NCBI RefSeq assembly: GCF_001011155.1
Contig: NZ_CP011479.1
Coordinates: 638,501 to 702,500 of the forward strand
DNA length: 64,000 nt
Direction: 5' to 3'
Origin: Hoeflea sp. IMCC20628
Lineage (GTDB): Bacteria; Pseudomonadota; Alphaproteobacteria; Rhizobiales; Rhizobiaceae
Part shown: piece by piece, positions 4,969 to 38,189 of the stretch
How the letters are laid out: each line of letters opens with the position of its first letter
Numbering within the stretch: the first letter of the stretch is position 1
Made by a program: the position numbers and the translations under genes
Notes under the pieces: generated by a model
Databases searched by the model: none
Seen by the model: only the letters and a program-made list of their open reading frames with translations
Told to the model about the DNA's origin: nothing

Positions 4969-5080
4969 GGAATCCCCATAATAGTGCAAAATCGTAGTGA
5001 AATGTTCGGTTAGAATAAAACAATATGGCGAAAATGTCTACAGATCAAGATGTATGTTGGCTCATTCACGGGAGATTGTC
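4969..5080. promoter_or_regulatory. Divergent putR-putA control region
   Basis: The 112 bp between the two divergent starts is AT-rich compared with both genes and must hold both promoters and the Lrp-type operator. The putA ribosome site GGGAGA (about 5069-5075) lies just before ATG 5081. I could not single out a convincing -35/-10 pair by eye. Confidence 0.5.
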
Positions 5081-8000
5081 ATGACCAGCACAACCACGCC
5101 AAACCTGCCAGCTTTTCACGCGCCGCATGCGGCAGACGACGACCGGTTGATTCATGATCTCAGCACGGACCTTGTGTTCAGCGGTGCGCAGGACCGGGCA
5201 ATTGATACCCGCACCACCAAGTTGATTCAGGCGATCCGTTCGGAGTCGGGCCAGATGGGCGGCGTCGAGGATTTCTTGCGCGAATACGGCCTGTCGACGC
5301 GGGAGGGACTGGCGTTGATGGTTCTGGCCGAAGCGCTGCTGCGGGTTCCCGATGCGCTGACCCAGGACCGGCTGATCGAGGACAAGCTCAAAGAGGGTGG
5401 CTGGAGCGAACACGAAAGTCATGGCGACACCTGGTTTGTTGCAGCCTCAGCCTGGGCGCTTGGACTGTCGGCCCGGGTGATCAAGCCGGGCGAGACGCCC
5501 GAAGGGGTGATGCGCGGACTGGTCAAGCGCATGGGCATGCCCTCGGTCAGAACGGCAACTCGGCAGGCGATGCGGTTTCTCGGGCATCATTTTGTGCTGG
5601 GCGAGACCATCAAGGACGCGTTGGGCCGCGCCGCGAAGAACGAGACGCGCGGCTATCGTCATTCCTACGACATGCTCGGCGAAGGCGCCCGAACTCACGC
5701 AGACGCCAAACGCTATTTCAAATCCTATGCCGATGCGATCGCGGCCATCGGCAAAGCCGCCAACAAGAGTTCGACCGGCCGCAAGCTGCCCGACCGTCCC
5801 GGCATCTCGGTCAAGCTCTCGGCGCTGCATCCGCGCTACGTTGCCACCCACCGCGAGCAGGTGCTCGAGGAACTGGTGCCTGATCTGATTGCCCTTGCGC
5901 AGATGGCAAAGGCGCATGATCTCAATTTCACCGTCGATGCAGAGGAAGTCGACCGGCTGGAACTGTCGCTGGATGTGATCGACCGTGCCTTCGCCGACAA
6001 GTCGCTTGCGGACTGGGATGGTTTCGGACTGGCTATCCAGGCCTATCAGAAGCGGGCGCCGCAGGTGATCGACCACATTGCCGGTCTGTGCCGCAAGCAT
6101 GGCCGCCGGATGATGGTGCGGCTGGTCAAGGGCGCTTACTGGGACACCGAGATCAAGCGCGCCCAGGAACGTGGCCTCGACGGCTACGCGGTGTTCACCC
6201 GCAAGGCAGCGACCGATCTGTCCTATCTTGCCTGTTCGCGTAAACTGCTGGATTTGCGCGATGTCATCTATCCGCAGTTTGCCACCCACAATGCGCTGAC
6301 GGTCGCCACCATCATCGAGATGGCCGAGGATCGCAGCGGCTTCGAATTCCAGCGCCTGCATGGCATGGGCGAGGTGGTTTATGACTGCCTGAGCAAGAGC
6401 AATGACCGCGTGCCGTGCCGCATTTATGCGCCGGTCGGCGGTTATCGCGATCTTCTCGCCTATCTGGTGCGCAGATTGCTGGAAAACGGCGCCAACTCTT
6501 CCTTCGTGGCGGTGGCTGGTGACAAGAAAATCCCGATTGCCTCGCTGCTGGAACGCCCGGACGCCAAGCTTGGACTGGCCAGGGGGCAGTCGGCCCGCAA
6601 CAGCCAGATTCCGCTGCCGCTGGCGATCTATCCCGACCGGGTCAATTCGCGCGGCATCGAATTCGGTGACCGGTTTCAGCTTGCCTCACTGCTGGAAGGC
6701 ATGCAGCGCTCCGGCGCAACAGTCGATGCTTGTCCTTTGGCGCCCGGGCTGAAGGGCGGTGCGGCGCAGGAGGTGAGATCTCCCTCCGTCCCGGCAAAGA
6801 TTGTCGGCACGGTGCGGTTCACCGACCCGAAGGATGTCGACAAGGCGGTTGGCATCGCCATGCAGGGCTTCAAGACCTGGTCGCGGACCGACGCCGGCAT
6901 CCGTGCTGCGGCGCTCGACCGGGCTGCCGATCTGCTCGAGGAGCGGCGCGACCGATTCATGGCGCTGCTGGCGGCCGAGTCCGGCAAGACGCTCGATGAC
7001 GGCATCGCAGAAATCCGCGAAGCCGTGGATTTCCTACGCTATTACGCCGACCGATCGCGCGAAATGTTTGCCAAATTGCAGCCGATGCCAGGCCCCACCG
7101 GCGAGGAAAACCGGATGGGCTGGCGCGGACGCGGCGTGTTCGTCTGCATTTCGCCGTGGAACTTTCCGCTGGCCATTTTCCTTGGCCAGCTCACCGCGGG
7201 GCTGGCTGCCGGCAATGCGGTGATCGCCAAGCCTGCGGAACAGACACCCTTGGTCGCCCATGAAGCGATTGCGCTGATGCATGAAGCCGGTGTGCCGAAA
7301 GATGTGCTGTTGTGCCTGCCGGGCGCTGGCGATGTCGGCGCGGCGCTGACCTCGCATCCGAAGATCGGCGGGGTGGCCTTTACCGGATCGACCGAGACCG
7401 CGCGCGCCATCAACCGGACGCTGGCCGCCAAGGACGGACCGATTGTGCCGTTCATCGCCGAGACCGGCGGGCTCAACGCCATGATCGTCGACGCCACGGC
7501 ACTGGCAGAACAGGTGGCCGATGATGTGGTGATGTCGGCGTTCCGCTCCGCCGGTCAGCGCTGCTCGGCGCTCAGGCTGTTGTTCGTGCAGGAAGACGTT
7601 GCCGATCAGATGCTGGAGATGATCGAAGGGGCTGCGCGCGAACTCAAGCTCGGCGATCCGTCAAAGCCCTCGACCGATATCGGGCCCGTCATCGATGAAG
7701 CGCAGCGCGACATGCTGGCAGCCCATATCGCAACCATCTCCAAGACCCAGAAACTGACCTATGCCGGAGATGTGCCGAATGAGGGGTTGTTCTTCGCCCC
7801 GCATATCGTTGAACTGAAAGACGCCAGCGCGCTTGACCGGGAGATTTTCGGCCCGGTGCTGCATGTGGTTCGCTACAAGGCCAAGAAGCTCGATGCGGTG
7901 CTTGACGCCATCGACGCCACCGGTTTTGGCCTGACGCTCGGCGTGCAAAGCCGCATTGAATCGACGGTGCGCAAGGTGATCGACCGGCTCGACACCGGCA

Positions 8001-8194
8001 ATGTCTATGTCAACCGAAACATCATCGGCGCCGTGGTCGGCACCCAGCCATTCGGCGGCTCGGGCCTGTCGGGCACTGGCTTCAAGGCCGGTGGCCCGCA
8101 CTACCTCATGCGCTTTGCGGTCGAGCAGGTGGTGTCGGTCAACACCGCGGCTGCCGGCGGCAATGCCGGGCTGATTGCCATGGCGGACGGGTGA
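5081..8194 (+). CDS. putA: Bifunctional proline dehydrogenase / L-glutamate gamma-semialdehyde dehydrogenase
   Basis: 1037 aa from ATG 5081 (GGGAGA upstream; an in-frame start at 4997 would invade the regulatory region). The enzyme oxidises proline to glutamate in two steps. The FAD-dependent PRODH barrel spans about residues 140-500 (RLVKGAYWD near 347, LLENGANSSFV near 466). The P5C dehydrogenase spans about 550-1010, with catalytic Glu794 (ETGGLNAM) and Cys828 (GQRCSALR). Unlike E. coli PutA it has no N-terminal ribbon-helix-helix domain, which fits control by the divergent Lrp regulator. The last 42 bp of the gene are duplicated at 9252-9293 beyond an AT-rich insert. Confidence 0.97.
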   Translation: MTSTTTPNLPAFHAPHAADDDRLIHDLSTDLVFSGAQDRAIDTRTTKLIQAIRSESGQMGGVEDFLREYGLSTREGLALMVLAEALLRVPDALTQDRLIEDKLKEGGWSEHESHGDTWFVAASAWALGLSARVIKPGETPEGVMRGLVKRMGMPSVRTATRQAMRFLGHHFVLGETIKDALGRAAKNETRGYRHSYDMLGEGARTHADAKRYFKSYADAIAAIGKAANKSSTGRKLPDRPGISVKLSALHPRYVATHREQVLEELVPDLIALAQMAKAHDLNFTVDAEEVDRLELSLDVIDRAFADKSLADWDGFGLAIQAYQKRAPQVIDHIAGLCRKHGRRMMVRLVKGAYWDTEIKRAQERGLDGYAVFTRKAATDLSYLACSRKLLDLRDVIYPQFATHNALTVATIIEMAEDRSGFEFQRLHGMGEVVYDCLSKSNDRVPCRIYAPVGGYRDLLAYLVRRLLENGANSSFVAVAGDKKIPIASLLERPDAKLGLARGQSARNSQIPLPLAIYPDRVNSRGIEFGDRFQLASLLEGMQRSGATVDACPLAPGLKGGAAQEVRSPSVPAKIVGTVRFTDPKDVDKAVGIAMQGFKTWSRTDAGIRAAALDRAADLLEERRDRFMALLAAESGKTLDDGIAEIREAVDFLRYYADRSREMFAKLQPMPGPTGEENRMGWRGRGVFVCISPWNFPLAIFLGQLTAGLAAGNAVIAKPAEQTPLVAHEAIALMHEAGVPKDVLLCLPGAGDVGAALTSHPKIGGVAFTGSTETARAINRTLAAKDGPIVPFIAETGGLNAMIVDATALAEQVADDVVMSAFRSAGQRCSALRLLFVQEDVADQMLEMIEGAARELKLGDPSKPSTDIGPVIDEAQRDMLAAHIATISKTQKLTYAGDVPNEGLFFAPHIVELKDASALDREIFGPVLHVVRYKAKKLDAVLDAIDATGFGLTLGVQSRIESTVRKVIDRLDTGNVYVNRNIIGAVVGTQPFGGSGLSGTGFKAGGPHYLMRFAVEQVVSVNTAAAGGNAGLIAMADG
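8153..8194 (+). repeat. 42-bp direct repeat, copy 1 (inside the putA 3' end)
   Basis: The last 42 bases of putA, from GCCGGCGGCAATG to the stop codon TGA, recur at 9252-9293 with a single mismatch (41/42). The two copies are in the same orientation and bound an AT-rich 1.06 kb insert. This copy keeps the putA reading frame and stop. Confidence 0.9.
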
Positions 8195-8248
8195 ACCTAT
8201 CTCCTTAACACAACAAGTTCGCGACGATGTTGTACAACATGTAAATCA

Positions 8249-9049
8249 CTATTTTTGTTGCTTAAGCCATTGTGAGAAAACGGCGCCGCCTTCTTTCATG
8301 ATTTTGGCATTTGGTCGGTAGCCACCAAGCTCATTTGTTGAATTCGACAGTGTCAAATTCATCATAAGATCATTCGGTGTTCCATTCCGATTAAATAGAA
8401 CAGCAGGGTCGTGTATACTTAATCCTGTCCCATTGGTCCATTTGGCTGATATTTCATCGGGGCAGTTACATGAATTGCATTGGTCGCGGGTTGGATTGCC
8501 CGTTTTAGGTTTTCTGCAGTAGTTTCTGTTTTTAACCAGTTGATGAGCCTTTAGCCCGCATGAATTGTACCAGCCGTTTTTGACTTTGGAGGAGCCTTGC
8601 GTGTCGCACCAAGGCAGGTAACGTTCAGCAAGCTTCAGGAAACTCCGGTTTTTAGCTCTCGCGTAAAACCATCGAAATTTTGCACTGATTGACCATTTTG
8701 GATGTACAAACACTGAATGGCCATTGTTGATTGGTTCGTTGGCTCTCATTCCTCGATTGTCGTGCGCACCGTTATTGCCTTTGGAGATGTCTGTCCCTTC
8801 CCAACCGGCTCTTGTGGGCTGCCATAGGCAACCATAATTATTGAGCTTTATACATAGGGGGACTTTCTTTGGTTTCGCGCAATCGATCGGTTTTCGTGAT
8901 CCGGTGGGTGTCAGGTATCGCTTTGCATTTTCACACCAGTTGGGTGCATCGGCTGGTACGGGGTATAAATCAGCCCGTGCGCTCAAAGATAGCGAAAAAA
9001 AAGCCGTGAAAAGTAAAGGCAGAATCTTTGTAATAAAAATTCTTGACAT
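8249..9049 (-). CDS. Secreted Cys-rich protein of unknown function (islet cargo)
   Basis: 266 aa from ATG 9049 (GAGG about 9 nt upstream; the longer reading to 9112 adds a non-signal-like extension). It begins with a signal peptide (KILPLLFTAFFSLSLSARA, cut after ARA), so it is exported. The mature part has at least 10 Cys, many in pairs (WCENAK/IDCAKP, PLCIK/GCLWQ, DQCNSCNCP), suggesting disulfides. The middle (HSVFVHPKWSISAKFRWFYAR, then SFLKLAERYLPWCD) loosely resembles the arrangement of phage P5-like muralytic proteins, but I do not claim that. The low GC and the flanking repeat mark it as horizontally acquired. No family recognised. Confidence 0.7.
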   Translation of the reverse strand: MSRIFITKILPLLFTAFFSLSLSARADLYPVPADAPNWCENAKRYLTPTGSRKPIDCAKPKKVPLCIKLNNYGCLWQPTRAGWEGTDISKGNNGAHDNRGMRANEPINNGHSVFVHPKWSISAKFRWFYARAKNRSFLKLAERYLPWCDTQGSSKVKNGWYNSCGLKAHQLVKNRNYCRKPKTGNPTRDQCNSCNCPDEISAKWTNGTGLSIHDPAVLFNRNGTPNDLMMNLTLSNSTNELGGYRPNAKIMKEGGAVFSQWLKQQK

Positions 9050-9251
9050 CTCAGTTTGCCTCTTCAATAGTCGATTTGTGCACATGTTATAGATAGATAT
9101 CGCTAATATCAACTATTTATATTGTCAACGGATAAGTGCAACTTAAGAATTTTCTATTGGTTGCTTCCCTTTCGCCATAGTGTCGTAATCGCGCATTGAG
9201 CGCCCTCATCATGCAAGAATCCGCTCTGCTTCGCTTTGGTCTCTATCCTCA

Positions 9252-9293
9252 GCCGGCGGCAATGCCGGGCTGATTGCGATGGCGGACGGGTGA
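9252..9293 (+). repeat. 42-bp direct repeat, copy 2 (displaced putA 3' end)
   Basis: This copy matches 8153-8194 at 41 of 42 positions, including the putA stop codon, but has no open putA frame upstream. It marks the far edge of the AT-rich islet; normal GC-rich sequence resumes at once after it. Confidence 0.9.
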
Positions 9294-9350
9294 TCCCTGC
9301 GCCGGGAGCAGTGCTGGCCGGGTGCAAAAACCCGGCTTGCCGGTCCGGCA

Positions 9351-10460
9351 TCAGCGCTGGTAATCCGGCCTCGGTTCGGGCGAGAACTCTATCGAGGCGC
9401 TGACGCCCTGGGCCGTGATCTTGAGGTCAAGCTCGCATCTGAGCTCCATGCAGGCGATCTCGGCAATCTTCATTCCGAGCCCGCCGGACTGCGAATTGAT
9501 GTCCGGCGGCATGCCGGCGCCATTGTCGGAGCAGGTGACCCTGACGCTGTCTGGCGTCGGGTTGGAGAGCTCGATCCGGACCACGCCCTCGCGCTGATCG
9601 GGGAATGCATGCTTGAACGAGTTGGCCACAAACTCATTGACCAGCGTGCCGACAGATACTGCCTGCTGTGAACCGATTTCAACCGACACCGGCACATATT
9701 CCATGGTGACATGGGGCGGCGTGGTTTCTGCCAGGTAATCGACGATGTTCTTGAGATAGATGCCGAGATCGACATTGGATCCGGCATCGGTCTTGTAGAG
9801 ATATTCATGCAGCGTCGAGACCGCGTCGATCCGGGTCATGATTTTTGAAACGGCCTGTTTGGCCTCGTCCGATTGCAGCCGCCGTTCCTGAATGCGGGCA
9901 AAGGCGGACAGTGACTGCAGCGAATTCTTGACCCGGTGATCGACTTCCTGGCGCATGGTGGCGGCTGATGCGATCGCCTTGCGCAATTCGAGCTGCACCA
10001 TCACCTGGCGGGCGAGCACCTTGATCGCATCCCGCTGCAACGGGGTCAGGGTGCGGGGCTGATGGTCGAGCACGCACAGGGTTCCGATCGGCAGGCCGTC
10101 CGGCGTTTTCAGTAGCGCGCCAGCATAAAAGCGCAGACCCGGATCGCCGCAGCACAGCGGATTGTCGACCATGCGCGGATCGTTCAGCGTGTCCTCGATC
10201 TCCATGAACTCGTCTTCGAGAATGGCATGCGAGCACAACGCCGTCTCGATCGGGGTTTCGCTCATCTCCAGCCCGACCGAGGCCTTGAACCATTGCCGGT
10301 CCGCATCCACCAGACTGATTAGCGATACCGATGTGCCGCAAATCGACGACGCCAGTTGCACGATGTCGTCGAAATCCTTTTCGCGGTCGGTGTCGAGCGT
10401 CTCGTAGGAGTACAGCGCCGTGAGTCTTTCGCTCTGGCGGGGATGCAGCGCAGCCTTCAT
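9351..10460 (-). CDS. GAF domain sensor histidine kinase (HisKA_2 type)
   Basis: 369 aa, no membrane segment. The N-terminal GAF domain covers about residues 20-160. It is followed by a HisKA_2 dimerisation region with the phospho-accepting His (QEVDHRVKNSLQSLSAF) and an HATPase domain with N box (LVNEFVANSFKHAFP), DNGAGMP and GGLGMKI boxes. This cytoplasmic sensor class often acts in general stress or light signalling in Alphaproteobacteria. No cognate response regulator is adjacent, so partner and signal are unknown. It is transcribed divergently from fhs over a 449-bp gap. Confidence 0.88.
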   Translation of the reverse strand: MKAALHPRQSERLTALYSYETLDTDREKDFDDIVQLASSICGTSVSLISLVDADRQWFKASVGLEMSETPIETALCSHAILEDEFMEIEDTLNDPRMVDNPLCCGDPGLRFYAGALLKTPDGLPIGTLCVLDHQPRTLTPLQRDAIKVLARQVMVQLELRKAIASAATMRQEVDHRVKNSLQSLSAFARIQERRLQSDEAKQAVSKIMTRIDAVSTLHEYLYKTDAGSNVDLGIYLKNIVDYLAETTPPHVTMEYVPVSVEIGSQQAVSVGTLVNEFVANSFKHAFPDQREGVVRIELSNPTPDSVRVTCSDNGAGMPPDINSQSGGLGMKIAEIACMELRCELDLKITAQGVSASIEFSPEPRPDYQR

Positions 10461-10909
10461 GTGTTCTACCCTCTGAAAAATACATCTTGCGTCAAGTGAT
10501 CAGCCTGCCGGCGGCGGTTGGATCATCGCGCGGTGCGGGAAGGCGCCTGCGTGGCGGTAGCGCTGTCTTCACCGGGTTACATTGCTGCAATCGGTACAGC
10601 TTCGAGCGGAGGCGGTCTTTAACCTGTCTTGCATTTTGTGGATTAATCCAGCCAGTTGCGCTGCCGGATCGGGCTTTATTGACCCCTTATAATGATGTGC
10701 GTGTTGCACGCAACACACGGCGCTGCCAGAAAGGCAGCAGGTAACATCGCATCGCAATGCAAGCGCAGTTCAGTGCGCGGTCCCCGCATGTCGCAATTGG
10801 CGCATTGGGCGTCCCGTTTCATGCAAGCATGGATTGGGCTTTCGGGCTCTATTCATTGGCTAGGGTCGCGCGGGGGATGCGGACCGGTGGGGAAGAGGAA
10901 AACAACACC
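10461..10909 (+). promoter_or_regulatory. Long fhs leader with TATAAT, perfect palindrome and hairpin
   Basis: This is a 449-bp gene-free stretch between the histidine kinase and fhs. TATAAT lies at 10688-10693, but I see no good -35 at 16-18 bp. Directly downstream is a perfect palindrome GTGTTGC-AC-GCAACAC (10701-10716), placed where a transcription start or operator would be. It is followed by a hairpin GCTGCC-AGAAA-GGCAGC (10722-10738). The fhs ribosome site GGAAGAGGA is at 10891-10899. A regulated promoter with a roughly 200-nt leader is plausible; no known riboswitch class was recognised. Confidence 0.45.
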
Positions 10910-12589
10910 ATGGCTGAGTACAAATCCGATATCGAGATTGCCCGGGGGGCAACCAAGAAGCCGATCATGGAGATTGGCGAGAAGCTGGGCATCCCGCAAC
11001 TGGACCTGGTTCCTTACGGTCATGACAAGGCCAAGGTTTCGGCCGATTTCATTGCGCGGCAAAAGGACAAGCCCAACGGCAAGCTGATCCTGGTCACCGC
11101 GATCAATCCGACGCCTGCGGGTGAAGGCAAGACCACCACCACGGTGGGCCTGGGAGATGGGCTCAACCGCATCGGCAAGAAGGCGATGATCTGCATCCGC
11201 GAAGCTTCGCTCGGGCCGAATTTCGGCATGAAGGGCGGCGCTGCGGGTGGCGGCATGGCGCAAGTGGTGCCGATGGAGGAAATGAACCTGCATTTCACCG
11301 GCGACTTCCACGCCATCACCAGCGCCCACAATCTGCTTTCGGCGATGATCGACAACCACATCTACTGGGGCAACGAGCTTGAAATCGATGCGCGCCGGAT
11401 TGTCTGGCGCCGGGTGATGGACATGAACGACCGGGCGCTGCGCGACATCGTGGTCAATCTCGGTGGCGTGGCCAACGGATTTCCGCGCCAGACCGGCTTT
11501 GACATCACCGTAGCCTCGGAAGTCATGGCGATCCTGTGCCTGGCCAAGGATCTGAAGGACTTGCAAGAGCGGCTGGGCGCCATCGTTGTCGCCTATCGCC
11601 GCGACAAGACCCCGATCCACTGCCGCGACATCAAGGCCGATGGCGCCATGACGGTTCTGCTCAAGGACGCGATGCAGCCAAACCTGGTGCAGACGCTGGA
11701 AAACAATCCCGCCTTCGTGCATGGCGGGCCATTCGCCAATATCGCGCATGGCTGCAACTCGGTGGTGGCCACCACGACGGCGCTGAAGCTGGCCGATTAC
11801 GTCGTCACCGAAGCAGGCTTCGGGGCCGATCTGGGTGCGGAAAAATTCTTCGACATCAAGTGCCGCAAGGCCGGGCTGAAGCCTGATGCCGCCGTGATCG
11901 TCGCCACCGTGCGGGCGATGAAGATGAATGGCGGCGTCAAAAAGGACGACCTTGGAACCGAAAACGTCGCCGCCGTCGAGAAGGGCTGCGCCAATCTCGG
12001 CCGGCATGTGCAGAACGTGAAGAAATTCGGCGTGCCGGTGGTGGTTGCGATCAATCACTTTGTTTCCGACACCGAGGCTGAAGTTCAGGCGGTGAAGGAC
12101 TATGTCGCGACACTCGGCGCCGAGGCGATCCTGTGCAAGCACTGGGCGCTGGGCTCGGCGGGAATCGAGGATCTGGCTCACAAGGTGGTGGAGATGGCCG
12201 AGTCCGGCCAGGCACAGTTCGCGCCACTCTATCCCGACGAGATGCCGCTGTTTGAAAAGATCGAGACCATCGCCAAGTCGATCTATCACGCAGGCGAGGT
12301 GATTGCGGAGAAATCCGTGCGCGAGCAGCTCAGGCAGTGGGAAGAGCAGGGCTATGGCAATCTGCCGATCTGCATGGCCAAGACGCAGTATTCATTCTCC
12401 ACCGACCCGAACCTGCGCGGCGCACCAACCGATCACACTGTTCCGGTACGCGAGGTGCGATTGTCTGCCGGTGCGGGCTTTATTGTCGTCATCACCGGCG
12501 AGATCATGACCATGCCGGGCCTGCCCAGAACGCCGTCTTCGGAAAAGATCTATCTCAATGACAAGGGGCAAATCGAAGGGTTGTTCTAA
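10910..12589 (+). CDS. fhs: Formate--tetrahydrofolate ligase
   Basis: 559 aa from ATG 10910 (GGAAGAGGA upstream), the usual length of the family; an open frame back to 10757 is leader. It makes 10-formyl-THF from formate, THF and ATP in the one-carbon cycle. The ATP-binding loop is [15 protein letters not shown] (around residues 65-78), and the family signature [11 protein letters not shown] is present. Typical alphaproteobacterial gene, complete, no oddities. It is separated from the convergent downstream gene by a short hairpin. Confidence 0.97.
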
Positions 12590-12616
12590 CGCAACATGCA
12601 TCAATTCAACCAGTTA

Positions 12617-12650
12617 CAGCGCCCCGCATTCAATTGGATGCGCGGCGCTG
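12617..12650. terminator. Hairpin between convergent genes
   Basis: CAGCGCC (12617-12623) pairs with GGCGCTG (12644-12650), with an inner GCAT/ATGC step. It lies between the stop of fhs and the stop of the convergent gene. There is no T-run on either side, so if it is a terminator it is not a canonical intrinsic one. Confidence 0.4.
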
Positions 12651-12679
12651 AAATGGGCTGGGGCGTCGTCTGAAGCTGA

Positions 12680-14542
12680 TTATCGAGGGCAACGCCAGTG
12701 TTCCATTTCTGTACGTTGCACCATGTGATCAAATCTTAGTCGGGAGTTTTCCTCGCTTTCTGCGTTCTCGTAGGAAAGCTGGTTGTTTCTGAATTTTCGC
12801 CACAACTGTTCGGGATCCGCGCCCATCCGGATCAGGCTGTGAACCATCAGTTTATCTTGTAGAAGAAAACTTTGATTCTGCACCAGATCCATCAATGGAG
12901 CCAATGCGGTTGGTGCGGTTTCTCCCGCCAAACAAAGACCGTACAAACCGGTTTTGTAGATTGATATCAGCTCGCGTCTTTCATTGTCATTTTCAGCCTT
13001 TTCCAAGCGTCGATAGACCAGGTCAAGCAGTGTCGGGACCGCACGATCTCCAAAAAAGTGCAGTTTCGCGATGACCTCGCCGGCATGACGTTGCATGTCC
13101 GGATTGGCAGCGATTTCTGTAAGTTCATCGTAGTAGGGCACCATGTAGTCAGCAGGGATTCGGGTAAATCCGGAGCTAATCCGGCGAATTGCCGTCCCCC
13201 AATCGACAGGAAGGTCATTCGACCAAGTCTGCCCAGCCTTTAGATTGTTGAGCAATATCGCAACCCAGTTGCTCATCTCCTGGCGGTCGCCGCCATTGAT
13301 CACCTTTTGAGTAACGGCATGCAGTACGGAAGGAGGAGGGTAGTCGGGCCGATCAAGAATGCGAAGCACAAGGTTTCCGTCTACGATACTTATTCCCGGC
13401 TTCTTCCAGGTGTCGAGTTGGTCAAAAAAGGCGTCGATCATTATGATGTCGGATGCTTTTGGCGGATTGCTGCTTTCAAGCAAGGTCTCGATAAGCGCAC
13501 GGTATTTTTGATTCCTGTCGCCCGCATTCAACTCCAAATCCAGACCAAGGGTCTCAGTCAGAAAGTGGACCCAGTCGGAAGTCTGGACTCCCTTGCGGCG
13601 GGCTGTCAGGCTTTTCTTGGTTCTGAGCCACCCTGGTTTAACGTGAAGCTGTCCAGAGCTCACAAATGTCGGGATCAAGGGTGCAAACAGGGGCCTGTAT
13701 TGGCCCGTCGTGCTTCTGAAAACCGGTTCAAACTCACCCTTGGCGTTTCGTGCGTGGGCGGTAATCCTTTGAACTGAAAATGTATCTGCTGTCAGCGAGT
13801 ACGAGTAGATTTTCCTGGTATCTGCACTGTGGAATTGTCCCCGTGACAGAATCATGTCGGCATCAGACAGCTTAGCTTTTTCTTCAATAAGGCATTGACC
13901 TTCGCTAATCCGAAGCCTGGCCTCTTCTGCAGCATTTGGCTGTTTTCGACTGTCGCCCGGTTTTCTTGGCAATGAAAATTGAGAGGAATTCGAGCTGATA
14001 TTGATGAGGGGACAGCTGTCCCGCTTTTCAAATCGGTAACTCAGCAATTCCATTTCCGGATCGATATCAGCAAATGGGCGTGTGGTGGGCAACATCAAAA
14101 TTCTATCCGCGGCGCCTGTCAAAAGCGCATGCAAACAAAACCCGTCGCATTTGCTTTCCTTGACCGGATAAATTCCCACGTCCTGGCGAACCGCAATTGT
14201 GGTTGCAATCATCGGGCGCGCGATGTCGCTGAAATCGCCTGAAATGTATTCTGAGTTTGCTGATAGTTTTGCTAGCAAATTTATCGTGGCTGGCAATATC
14301 CACAGAATGGATATCGCAGAAACTACAGATAGAATTACCTTCTTGGTGCGTTCTGCTTTTATCAGTACGGAAATCCAAAGAGACAGTATGGTGTATAAAG
14401 ATATTGTAGGGGCTGCAATAATCAGAAAAGATATCGGTATTCCGACGCCGGTGAACAATAGATATATGATAATCTCAGGATTCAAAAATCCTATAATCGA
14501 CGCCGGTATGGTGATTGATAAAATTATCGCGACCCACTTCAC
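12680..14542 (-). CDS. Unknown membrane protein, AT-rich
   Basis: 620 aa from GTG 14542, which has GGAG 6 nt upstream; the open frame extends to 14917, but that part overlaps the extensin-like gene on the same strand and has no ribosome site. The N-terminal ~100 residues contain three hydrophobic segments (VAIILSITIPASIIGF, IIIYLLFTGVGIPISFLII through LSLWISVL, and VILSVVSAISILWILPA), followed by a large, presumably periplasmic domain. The last ~150 residues look like short helical repeats (HFFGDRAVPTLLDLVYRRLEKAEN, APTALAPLMDLVQ), HEAT-like by eye. GC is lower than in neighbours, suggesting transfer. No family recognised. Confidence 0.65.
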   Translation of the reverse strand: MKWVAIILSITIPASIIGFLNPEIIIYLLFTGVGIPISFLIIAAPTISLYTILSLWISVLIKAERTKKVILSVVSAISILWILPATINLLAKLSANSEYISGDFSDIARPMIATTIAVRQDVGIYPVKESKCDGFCLHALLTGAADRILMLPTTRPFADIDPEMELLSYRFEKRDSCPLINISSNSSQFSLPRKPGDSRKQPNAAEEARLRISEGQCLIEEKAKLSDADMILSRGQFHSADTRKIYSYSLTADTFSVQRITAHARNAKGEFEPVFRSTTGQYRPLFAPLIPTFVSSGQLHVKPGWLRTKKSLTARRKGVQTSDWVHFLTETLGLDLELNAGDRNQKYRALIETLLESSNPPKASDIIMIDAFFDQLDTWKKPGISIVDGNLVLRILDRPDYPPPSVLHAVTQKVINGGDRQEMSNWVAILLNNLKAGQTWSNDLPVDWGTAIRRISSGFTRIPADYMVPYYDELTEIAANPDMQRHAGEVIAKLHFFGDRAVPTLLDLVYRRLEKAENDNERRELISIYKTGLYGLCLAGETAPTALAPLMDLVQNQSFLLQDKLMVHSLIRMGADPEQLWRKFRNNQLSYENAESEENSRLRFDHMVQRTEMEHWRCPR

Positions 14543-31901: not shown

Positions 31902-31934
31902 GCGACCGACGACCGGAGAGCCCCTGGCGAGGTC

Positions 31935-32687
31935 TTACGCCGCCAGGCTGTCGAATATCACCTGATTGCGACCGCTGGCCTTTGCCGAGTAAAGACACTC
32001 GTCGGCAATTCGGAACAGATCGTCATAATTGGCATTTCGACCAAAAGCCGCGCCCCCTACACTGACGGAAAGGGTGTGCGATCTGGCATTCGGCGGAAAC
32101 TCGGCCTCGCTGATTTGCAGACGAATACGTTCGGCTACTGTGAGGGCCTGCGCGATGCCGGTTTTTGGCAGGAAAACGCCGAATTCCTCGCCGCCGATCC
32201 GCCCGACGATGTCGCCTTGCCTGAGTGAGTCCTGGATGGTTTGGGCAATGATCTTCAACGCGACATCACCCTTCTGGTGACCAAAGCGGTCATTGATCCC
32301 TTTGAAATGGTCAGCATCGATGACCAGGAACGCTCCGGCGTTGTGTGCCGGTTGCCGCATCGCCTGCTGGAGATAGGCGTCGACCAGCATCTTGAAGGCG
32401 CCGCGATTGAGCACTGCTGTCAGGCTGTCTGTCGAGGCGATGATGCTGATTTCGCGGTGGGCCATCGCCAATTGCCGCATCTTGTAGAGCAGCATGAAGA
32501 GTGCCGGTGCTGCAAGTCCCATCGGCAGGAAGGTGTTGACCATCATCGAGTAGCGAAATCGCGCTTCAGACATTTCGTGAAACCTGAAGGAGGCAATAAA
32601 CATCGCCGCGCCAATGCAGAAAATTGTGCCGCCAAGAACCCCGGCCACGACCCTGGCCCAGCCGGTGGCTGAAAAATCAAGCTTCAC
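31935..32687 (-). CDS. Diguanylate cyclase, membrane-anchored (copy 1 of tandem pair)
   Basis: 250 aa from GTG 32687 (GGGG 7-8 nt upstream; a TTG at 32720 would add 11 residues). Two membrane helices (about residues 11-33 and 48-68) are followed directly by a GGDEF domain with active site GGEEF at 165-169 and the inhibitory I-site RQGD five residues before it, so it should make c-di-GMP with product feedback. No sensory domain between membrane and cyclase. A near-identical copy lies upstream at 32966-33718. Confidence 0.92.
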   Translation of the reverse strand: MKLDFSATGWARVVAGVLGGTIFCIGAAMFIASFRFHEMSEARFRYSMMVNTFLPMGLAAPALFMLLYKMRQLAMAHREISIIASTDSLTAVLNRGAFKMLVDAYLQQAMRQPAHNAGAFLVIDADHFKGINDRFGHQKGDVALKIIAQTIQDSLRQGDIVGRIGGEEFGVFLPKTGIAQALTVAERIRLQISEAEFPPNARSHTLSVSVGGAAFGRNANYDDLFRIADECLYSAKASGRNQVIFDSLAA

Positions 32688-32965
32688 TCTTGCACCCCGC
32701 AAGTTTCGATCTGGCCGCAATGACCAGCAATCGCAATAAGGCCCGGAAACATATGCGTTAGCTTTAATGTCTCGACGTCAGTTATGGGGGGTGTGTTCTT
32801 TGGTGCCCGGCATCCGCCGCAGACGCTGCGCGCGCATAAAAAGGCCTTGGTCAGCGCAATGGAGCTAACAGCCATGCGACATTGAAACCGGGATTGCAGC
32901 AGGTAAAGATGCAGGTTGTATCGATGCTGGCGGTGCCTCCGGTTTAGGGGCCCTCTGTTGAGGTT

Positions 32966-33718
32966 TTAAGCCACCAGTCGCTCGAATATGACCTGATTAC
33001 GACCGCCGGCCTTTGCCGAGTAAAGGCACTTGTCGGCGACACGGAACAGATCATCATAATCGGCATTTCGCCCGAATGCCGCGCCCCCCACGCTGACGGA
33101 AAGGCTGTGCGACATGGTGTCGGGTGGAAATTCGACTTCGCCGATTTGCATCCGAATGCGTTCGGCGACATGAAGTGCCTGCTCGAGACCGGTTTTTGGC
33201 AGGAAAACCCCGAATTCCTCGCCGCCGATCCGTCCGACGATATCGCCTTGCCTGAGTGAACCCTGGATGGTTTGGGCAATGATCTTCAACGCGACATCAC
33301 CCTTCTGGTGACCAAAGCGGTCATTGATCGATTTGAAATGGTCGGCATCGATGACCAGGAATGCTCCGGCGTTCTGTGCTGGCTGCCGCATCGCCTGCTG
33401 GAGATAGGCGTCGACCAGCATCTTGAAGGCGCCGCGATTGAGAACCGCTGTCAGGCTGTCTGTCGAGGCGATGATGCTGATCTCGTGGTGGGCGATCGCC
33501 AATTGCCGCATCTTGTAGAGCAGCAGGAACAACAGCGGTGCTGCCAGTCCGGTGGGCAACAAGGTGTTGACCATCAGCGAATAGCGGAATTGAGAATCCG
33601 TCATGCTGTGGAAATTGAAGGAATCGACGAAGAATGCCATGGCGATGCAGAAGGCCGTGCCGAACACGGTCCCGGCGATGACCTTGGCCCAGCCGGCGGC
33701 TGAAAAATCAAGCTTCAC
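32966..33718 (-). CDS. Diguanylate cyclase, membrane-anchored (copy 2 of tandem pair)
   Basis: 250 aa from GTG 33718. Same architecture as the neighbour: two membrane helices, then GGDEF with GGEEF and I-site RQGD. The catalytic domain differs from copy 1 at few positions, while the segment between the helices (DSFNFHSMTDSQFRYSLMV versus ASFRFHEMSEARFRYSMMV) differs more, as if the periplasmic part were under different selection. Each copy keeps its own upstream region, so they are probably expressed separately. Confidence 0.92.
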   Translation of the reverse strand: MKLDFSAAGWAKVIAGTVFGTAFCIAMAFFVDSFNFHSMTDSQFRYSLMVNTLLPTGLAAPLLFLLLYKMRQLAIAHHEISIIASTDSLTAVLNRGAFKMLVDAYLQQAMRQPAQNAGAFLVIDADHFKSINDRFGHQKGDVALKIIAQTIQGSLRQGDIVGRIGGEEFGVFLPKTGLEQALHVAERIRMQIGEVEFPPDTMSHSLSVSVGGAAFGRNADYDDLFRVADKCLYSAKAGGRNQVIFERLVA

Positions 33719-37353: not shown

Positions 37354-37491
37354 CGTCATGCCGGACCCCGATCCGGCATCCAGCAGGCGAGCGTCCGCTA
37401 GCCGGAAGACCAATTCTGTTCAGCACGTGGAAGAGTCTCTCACCGCGCGGACGCGCGGTGGCTGGATCCCGGATCAAGTCCGGGATGACGG
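37354..37491. repeat. Dispersed palindromic repeat, copy A
   Basis: About 138 bp, beginning CGTCATGCCGGACCCCGATC and ending GGATCAAGTCCGGGATGACG, with an internal palindrome ACCGCGCGGACGCGCGGTGG. Related copies lie at 37928-38063 and 38190-38308. Confidence 0.8.
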
Positions 37492-37519
37492 GGGGATGGA
37501 GACGACACAAGCCGATAGC

Positions 37520-37813
37520 TCAAAGACCATGGAGAAAGTGGGCAATGTCATCCCAATCCGGGTTCATTGTCTCGATCAGATCGATTTTCCATTGCCGGGG
37601 CCAGTTCTTGATGGCTTTTTCGCGGGCGATTGCGTCGGTCACGAGGTCATGCTCCTCGAACCAGACCAGCGTTTTCACAGCGTATTTCGAGGCAAAGCCC
37701 GGCGTCAGATTGTTCTGGTGCTCATACAGGCGGCCGGGCAAGTCGCTGGTCACGCCGGTGTAGAGCGTGCCATTGCGCCTTGAGGCAAGGATATAGACAT
37801 AGCCCTTCCGCAT
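37520..37813 (-). CDS. GIY-YIG domain protein (UPF0213-like)
   Basis: 97 aa from ATG 37813; the frame is open further to 37933, but that part is repeat-derived. The domain begins KGYVYILASRRNGTLYTGVTSDLPGRLYEHQNN, with the conserved Tyr pairs, Arg and the later Glu (REKAIKNW) of the short GIY-YIG nuclease-like family. Such single-domain proteins are common in rhizobia, often in several copies and often amid repeats, as here (repeat copies lie on both sides). Cellular role unknown. Confidence 0.85.
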   Translation of the reverse strand: MRKGYVYILASRRNGTLYTGVTSDLPGRLYEHQNNLTPGFASKYAVKTLVWFEEHDLVTDAIAREKAIKNWPRQWKIDLIETMNPDWDDIAHFLHGL

Positions 37814-37927
37814 GCCGCCATGATTGCATGACATGCGCCTGCTCGCAAAAGTTTTGAGGGTCGCCACAGTGGGGCTGGTATTTGCCTCATCCGCCGATGC
37901 CTGCCTTTTAGGCGCCCCTCTCTCCTC

Positions 37928-38063
37928 CGTCATCCCGGACTTGAACCGGGATCCAGCAGGCGAGCGTCGGCGAGCCGGACGACGCTATTGTGCATGTCTC
38001 GAAGGAGCCTCTCACCGCGCAGACGCGCGGTGGCTGGACCCCGGATCAAGTCCGGGGTGACGG
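37928..38063. repeat. Dispersed palindromic repeat, copy B
   Basis: About 136 bp, CGTCATCCCGGACTTGAACC to ATCAAGTCCGGGGTGACG, with the same internal ACCGCGC...GCGCGGTGG palindrome and CCAGCAGGCGAGCGTC block as copy A. Confidence 0.8.
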
Positions 38064-38189
38064 GTGGAGGGGATGCCGATGAACGCGGTCATTGGTGGCA
38101 GTTGCCGACCCTATGGTCTGTTGTTCCTAAGGGAGAACCGGACGCATTTTTGATGGGATGGAGGACGGAGTGGACTGTGATTTCCCGGA

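Follow-up and report, generated by a model that had tools for sequence, protein, structure and literature searches.

A putA–fhs interval in Hoeflea that probably gained a congener's allele beside its own

A CIME, or an integrative element at the 3′ end of a gene, is seen as a direct repeat of the gene end around cargo that carries no recombinase. Partial duplications of a gene end have also been described as products of recombination between a DNA fragment and a resident locus. In the E. coli conjugation experiments described in PMC3240628, 56 of 60 clones were positive in a PCR diagnostic for a partial duplication, which measured 109–950 bp in the 14 clones sequenced; as set out there, recircularised fragments integrate by a single crossing-over and leave such duplications behind, and the homology threshold of RecA is cited as about 30 bp. 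Four of the 60 clones were attributed in the same report to homology-facilitated illegitimate recombination (HFIR), three of these four without homology at the joint. HFIR is described in that source as acting on linear DNA, with 3–10 bp of micro-homology in most cases and with a resident-DNA deletion of similar size that is general, not obligatory (PMC3240628). A mechanism akin to HFIR has been proposed, not shown, for the type VI secretion (T6SS) effector–immunity arrays of V. cholerae, according to the account in PMC5361080. Short variable segments are reported as common in E. coli and other species, with 10–18% of them repeat-flanked, and the authors of that report think illegitimate recombination likely (PMC2884548). 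Among the open-licence PMC papers listed, we found none on the putA locus, which is weak evidence that none exists, and in PMC11476347 the terms putA and proline dehydrogenase have 0 occurrences.

In the window, by which we mean the whole 64,000-nucleotide stretch of Hoeflea sp. IMCC20628 DNA analysed here, the end of putA is present twice (Table 1). A repeat search gave a 45-bp direct repeat with 43 of 45 positions identical and a start-to-start distance of 1,099 bp. The 42 bp of it that form the putA end, stop codon included, agree at 41 of 42 positions, and their sole mismatch (GCC/GCG) falls at a synonymous third codon position. At up to three mismatches, the putA-tail pattern occurs at just two places in the strain's own genome (5,119,813 bases in three contigs), and the reversed pattern at the same threshold gave 0 matches there. 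A 200-bp putA-tail HMM, built on 14 other genus members and scanned against the window, likewise matches 7995–8193 (E = 2e-63) and 9248–9293 (E = 4.4e-8), the next match having E = 0.15. About 1.06 kb of DNA separates the two tails, with 41–47% GC in 300-bp windows, compared with 55–67% in the flanks. The open reading frames (ORFs) of at least 80 aa in this islet are gene X (8249–9112 as an ORF, minus strand), with a signal-peptide-like N-terminus and ten cysteines by eye, and an 83-aa plus-strand ORF nested inside it. An earlier note, made from the letters of the DNA alone, had described much of this, and its description stands: the putA-end repeat with one mismatch, the AT-rich islet, the single exported Cys-rich gene on the opposite strand, an insertion adjoining a conserved gene end (the intact putA 3′ end lies at the left of the islet) and the lack of an integrase or transposase, none being seen among the main ORFs of the islet. 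The 64-kb window contains no tRNA.

Table 1. Features of the putA–fhs region, in window coordinates
Feature	Position	Strand	Basis
putA, bifunctional proline dehydrogenase / aldehyde dehydrogenase; probable left homology anchor	4997..8194	+	Pfam Pro_dh, Aldedh
putA tail copy 1, 3′ end of the intact gene itself (42 bp up to the stop + 3 bp)	8153..8197	+	repeat search
AT-rich islet between the tails; probable putA–fhs interval of the donor	8195..9251	.	composition, genome comparison
Gene X, exported Cys-rich protein, 266 aa	8249..9049	-	ATG at 9049; ORF opens at 9112
Displaced, diverged fhs leader copy at the right end of the islet	9180..9251	+	leader HMM E 1.8e-8; blastn; alignment
GCCGGCGG, candidate microhomology at the illegitimate joint	9252..9259	+	sequence
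putA tail copy 2, probable remnant of the resident putA end, then native downstream DNA	9252..9296	+	repeat search, alignment
GAF/HisKA_2 sensor kinase, resident gene of the putA–fhs interval	9351..10460	-	Pfam
Native fhs leader	10788..10859	+	leader HMM
fhs, formate-THF ligase	10910..12589	+	Pfam FTHFS; ORF opens 10757

The start of fhs in Table 1 was placed at 10910 from conservation and start-codon spacing. Three further repeats or palindromes were recorded in the window. A perfect 14-bp palindrome, ATGTTGTACAACAT, lies at 8227–8240 between putA and X; it is the only one in the window and a possible regulator site. Far downstream, 37370–38071 holds two repeat pairs (41 nt at 88% and 67 nt at 91%) that are near-register, 572–573 bp apart, palindromic and REP-like by eye, and 31921–33251 holds a direct repeat of 300 nt with 83% identity and a spacing of 1031.

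The right end of the islet bears on its origin. Its last 72 bases align with DNA upstream of fhs in relatives. A 72-bp leader HMM, made from 15 other genus genomes with this strain left out, finds only two matches at E ≤ 10 in the 64-kb window, both on the same strand: 10789–10857 (5.7e-21), at the native leader, and the islet copy, whose hit end at 9251 is partly fixed by the length of the HMM, the finer boundary coming from blastn and alignment. By blastn, the leader of a congener, G005, matches window positions 9168–9258 with 78% identity (E = 1.7e-12), a match that includes the first seven bases of putA tail copy 2, and the islet copy is diverged, with 74–89% identity to the genus leaders over ungapped columns. 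Leader likeness ends at 9251–9258, against putA position −42, where the second putA tail starts and where there is a GC-rich microhomology; in the alignment, past this joint the sequence tracks putA and no longer the leader. At the corresponding place the leader end of G005 reads GGCCGGCG, so a joint at GCCGGCGG via microhomology is likely, judged from the letters of G005 and not from those of the donor itself. The order putA tail, X, fhs leader therefore suggests that the islet is the putA–fhs interval of a relative with X in the place of the kinase.

The leader itself was found in 16 of 18 genus genomes and in 0 of 43 from other genera, and it lies 117–123 bp upstream of the fhs start in 14 of the 16 genomes, those with a start recognised. 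In the strain's own genome, no further significant copy of the native leader turned up. As a conserved element of about 70 bp (10788–10859) upstream of fhs, restricted to the genus and without an Rfam match, it may be a previously undescribed cis-regulatory element for the formate-THF ligase gene. A search of Rfam with positions 8000–13000 gave three matches, all far below gathering scores and none at the leader, and RNAalifold on the 16 leaders gave only −6.6 kcal/mol; we claim no RNA structure.

The putA region in the strain's own genome was compared with those of 16 other genus members and of three other genera, using a genome set with one representative per species; the genus sample thus comprises 17 of 18 genomes including this strain, and G007 (75% complete) gave no usable putA locus. 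Empty sites with a single copy, as the earlier note had predicted, are present in G009, G013 and G016, in which putA with its one tail stands directly before the kinase gene, followed by fhs. The DNA of this strain from copy 2 on can be aligned with these three genomes and with G010. The fhs leader region begins about 55 bp past putA in G006 and G012, and a mechanical ORF listing shows different ORFs filling the putA–fhs interval in the remaining genus members; interval ORFs were checked against Pfam in G010 and G008 only. In the kinase-less G001, G005 and G017, the ORFs between putA and the leader are divergent from fhs, like X. Six of 17 genus genomes have the kinase at the locus (G000, which is this strain, G002, G009, G010, G013 and G016). 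Among the matches listed, the other 60 genomes hold none of the islet except for the leader part in G005 (window 9168–9258), in a search that scored few candidate places per genome (at most four) and in which copy counts rest on individual loci; blastn of the islet on 20 fetched loci agrees. Across the family, the putA-tail pattern matched 27 of 394 genomes and only this one twice, although the pattern is too strict for decayed copies and sets no frequency, with eight genus members listed and neither G010 nor G008 among them. G002 shows a repeat of another sort, a palindromic sequence downstream of fhs that recurs upstream of the kinase gene (L037:3269-3329 and 6634-6689); this is either a mobile palindrome or another scar, and we do not count it as a scar.

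We read the islet as an allele of the homologous locus from a donor of the same genus, added beside the resident interval by one homologous and one illegitimate joint, and give this reading a probability of roughly three in four. The donor would be an unsampled genus member with putA, X in the opposite orientation, and then the leader and fhs, with no kinase between. A fragment of this locus would have entered an ancestor of the strain; on one side homologous recombination would have occurred within putA, and on the other the leader end of the donor would have been joined illegitimately at the GCCGGCGG microhomology, 42 bp before the stop of the resident putA. This would leave putA intact, add X and most of the donor leader, and strand, ahead of the kinase, a stub made of the final 42 bp of the resident putA. 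Either the fragment could have been circularised by end joining and then integrated by one RecA-dependent crossover within the putA tail, or a linear fragment could have been taken up by HFIR. That no resident DNA was lost leans to the circle, whereas the shortness of the 42-bp homology, which is not far above the RecA threshold (about 30 bp), speaks rather for HFIR with a longer putA anchor.

The homologous joint is visible as an intact putA with its own tail on the left and a putA tail remnant on the right, and a foreign allele is suggested by the genus-specific leader inside the insert and by the allelic divergence in G010 described below. The identity of the donor, the direction and route of transfer and the joining reaction are what we infer from this footprint. 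No donor with X in its putA–fhs interval was found, the other 17 genus genomes having no X at all. Copy 1 ends Met-Ala-Asp-Gly, as do copy 2 and both copies in G010 but 0 of the 15 other genus members shown, so that the donor putA would come from this sub-lineage or the crossover would lie in about the last 10 bp.

Set beside the described systems, the islet resembles the crossover of recircularised fragments in PMC3240628 in its partial duplication of a gene end with one homologous and one end-joined junction, but the cases described there involve laboratory plasmids and 109–950 bp, whereas here the duplication is 42 bp (about 45 and 183 bp in relatives) and the event is reconstructed from natural genomes. 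HFIR, as presented in the same source, shares the pairing of a homologous with an illegitimate joint, an insert size near 1 kb and, in most reported cases, a short micro-homology at the joint, but it generally comes with a deletion of resident DNA, and there is none at the putA locus (PMC3240628). Strict HFIR was considered and set aside: the kinase, leader and fhs all occupy the positions they have in G009, G010, G013 and G016, with no deletion. The V. cholerae T6SS arrays, in the description given in PMC5361080, also have a module added beside an anchor, older content downstream and cargo that varies among strains, but they keep whole immunity genes, whereas the remnant here is the stub of a housekeeping gene.

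An identical arrangement, joint included, could also come from the mirror image of this event, in which putA–X–leader–fhs was resident and a block of putA tail, kinase, leader and fhs was imported from a kinase-bearing relative, through homology at fhs and an illegitimate joint between the resident leader and the donor putA tail. In the sister genome G010, however, the kinase occupies the corresponding place, and of the five other kinases at the locus it is the most similar (90% versus 80–85% protein identity); the kinase therefore most likely predates the split from G010, and the mirror event, which requires that the kinase be lost and regained, is improbable.

Two congeners carry further cases, and they are the other cargo between two putA tails that the earlier note had foreseen. 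In G010, putA is followed by a gene for an NAD-dependent epimerase (Pfam Epimerase, 2.3e-24), then by a putA tail of about 183 bp (putA-tail HMM, E = 1.3e-54) and then by the kinase. G008 has AraC-family and short-chain dehydrogenase (SDR) genes after putA; next comes a tail, decayed and about 45 bp long, which immediately precedes the fhs leader region. The putA-tail HMM reaches only E = 0.19 on the G008 stub; in a shuffle test run after the stretch was noticed, its local alignment with the tail of G008 itself scored 47, shuffling the 155-bp stretch gave 18.2 ± 2.8 with 0 of 1,000 shuffles reaching 47, and alignments with five other tails scored 37–52 (0 of 1,000 shuffles each). As controls, 12 stretches that precede the leader in other genomes were scored against the tail of this strain; all gave 12–20 with shuffle means of 14–18, the lowest count being 23 of 300 (G013). 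Thus 3 of the 17 genus genomes examined have cargo flanked by an intact putA on one side and a stub of it on the other.

G010 is the sister of this strain (support 100/99, in a tree with 4 of 15 inner branches well supported), but because the stub starts and the cargo differ, the two insertions would be separate events. The two tails of G010 differ at 11 of 178 positions and, with codon positions assigned by hand, 11 of 11 differences are at third positions, which has a probability of about 6e-6 if codon position did not matter. A stub that decays after the event is expected to change at all codon positions, and the G008 stub, also read by hand, does so and has a two-base gap. Because all differences in G010 are at third positions, its tails would have diverged in two lineages, each as part of a working gene, before being brought together. 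Both have A at position −67, where this strain and 14 other aligned genus members have G, and the donor in G010 would therefore have been close to G010 itself. Derived changes in the G010 tails are mostly in copy 2 upstream and in copy 1 downstream, the distribution expected from a single crossover; the pattern involves about ten sites and we claim no significance for it. The epimerase insert was present only in G010 among 21 genomes searched. Over the last 900 bp of putA, this strain and G010 are 92–98% identical at positions 300–780 and 88–90% in the last 120 bp, and a mosaic test of putA pointed to no relative as a clear donor of that stretch.

These tails also bear on a simpler history, in which slippage or template switching duplicated the strain's own putA tail locally and foreign DNA was then inserted, with no second putA allele involved. 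The two tails of this strain, which differ by a single coding base, are compatible with such a history, that difference being uninformative in itself, but the fhs-leader piece at the joint would be left unexplained and the tails of G010, 11 of 11 at third positions, diverged like functional alleles. We consider self-duplication very improbable.

The earlier note had instead likened the islet to an integrative element, perhaps mobilised in trans. In such a CIME-like element the 42 bp would be an att core at the putA 3′ end, and the kept gene end, the direct repeat, the foreign composition, the empty sites, the other cargo in G010 and G008, the nearly identical boundaries in this strain and G008, and the plasmid relatives of X next to or near mobilisation or recombinase genes would all be in keeping with it. 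But the repeats are 42, about 183 and about 45 bp long, so no att core is constant across the insertions, although a short one common to all three is conceivable; no recombinase was seen among the main ORFs of the three inserts; the genome has just two such tails; and the right end of the islet is fhs-leader DNA of the same locus, as in a congener, which is unexpected in an element's own end. Like a CIME, the islet has a direct repeat of a gene end and cargo without a recombinase; unlike one, it has no constant repeat length and no recombinase in sight, and it holds leader DNA of its own locus. We therefore regard an integrase-type origin as unlikely, and the comparison does not support the 42 bp as an att core. 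Of the suggestion that the site had been used repeatedly, the different cargo in three genomes upholds the recurrence, but recombination is a more likely agent than an integrase.

The insert boundaries in this strain and G008 nearly coincide, which may be chance with two cases only. They would also fit a reading in which the putA 3′ end of the genus is a preferred capture site, its hairpin-forming GCCGGCGGCAATGCCGG end promoting breakage or joining and so the uptake of kilobase-sized cargo without a recombinase; we hold this possibility to be doubtful, and return to an added allele as the preferred account of the islet.

As for the cargo, X has no Pfam, PHROG or NCBIfam match, is absent from the other 17 genus genomes (1 of 18 including this strain) and was not found in viral contigs and phages. 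A relative with 63% identity, the only one found in the genome contigs searched, is in the Hyphomicrobiales MAG NORP22, where it adjoins ORFs that by eye resemble transposases and a serine recombinase; a Roseibium plasmid carries a relative (37%) beside a MobA/MobL gene, and a Cupriavidus plasmid another (31%) beside an integrase gene. X may have moved on mobile DNA at some time before it reached the putA–fhs interval of the donor. A four-row profile matches 13 of 397 genomes of the order, three of them nearly full length (this strain, G208 and G324), and the G208 protein is identical in letters to that of NORP22. The three relatives (L055:5974-6771; L069:5764-6612; L070:3926-4705), two of them plasmid-borne, form an exported, Cys-rich and rare family with the conserved motifs LNNY/MNNY-x-C and PWCDT-x-GS. 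Five relatives match phrog_873, annotated 'endolysin' (5.2e-9, 1.7e-7, 3e-5, 0.0013 and 0.16). We did not adopt a phage endolysin as the identity of X, which itself has no PHROG match, only distant relatives matching phrog_873; a secreted cell-wall-active protein is our guess. Against the PDB, X had no match at E ≤ 1 and a profile of four relatives matched only cytochrome c3, at E of at least 0.067, and an AlphaFold model of X from sequence alone was unusable (mean pLDDT 34.5).

The footprint at putA is real, and it is better explained by recombination between alleles of a variable interval than by an integrative element. The event is a well-resolved new example of an essentially known kind and adds no new mobile element. 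A gene-end repeat around foreign DNA does not on its own speak for an att site; the anchor-gene stub serves to orient the event. With three cases at one locus in one genus, the putA–fhs interval points to an integrase-free route to footprints that look like those of integrative elements, by which an interval between core genes can gain genes without a mobile element, the allele of a neighbour being added next to its own.
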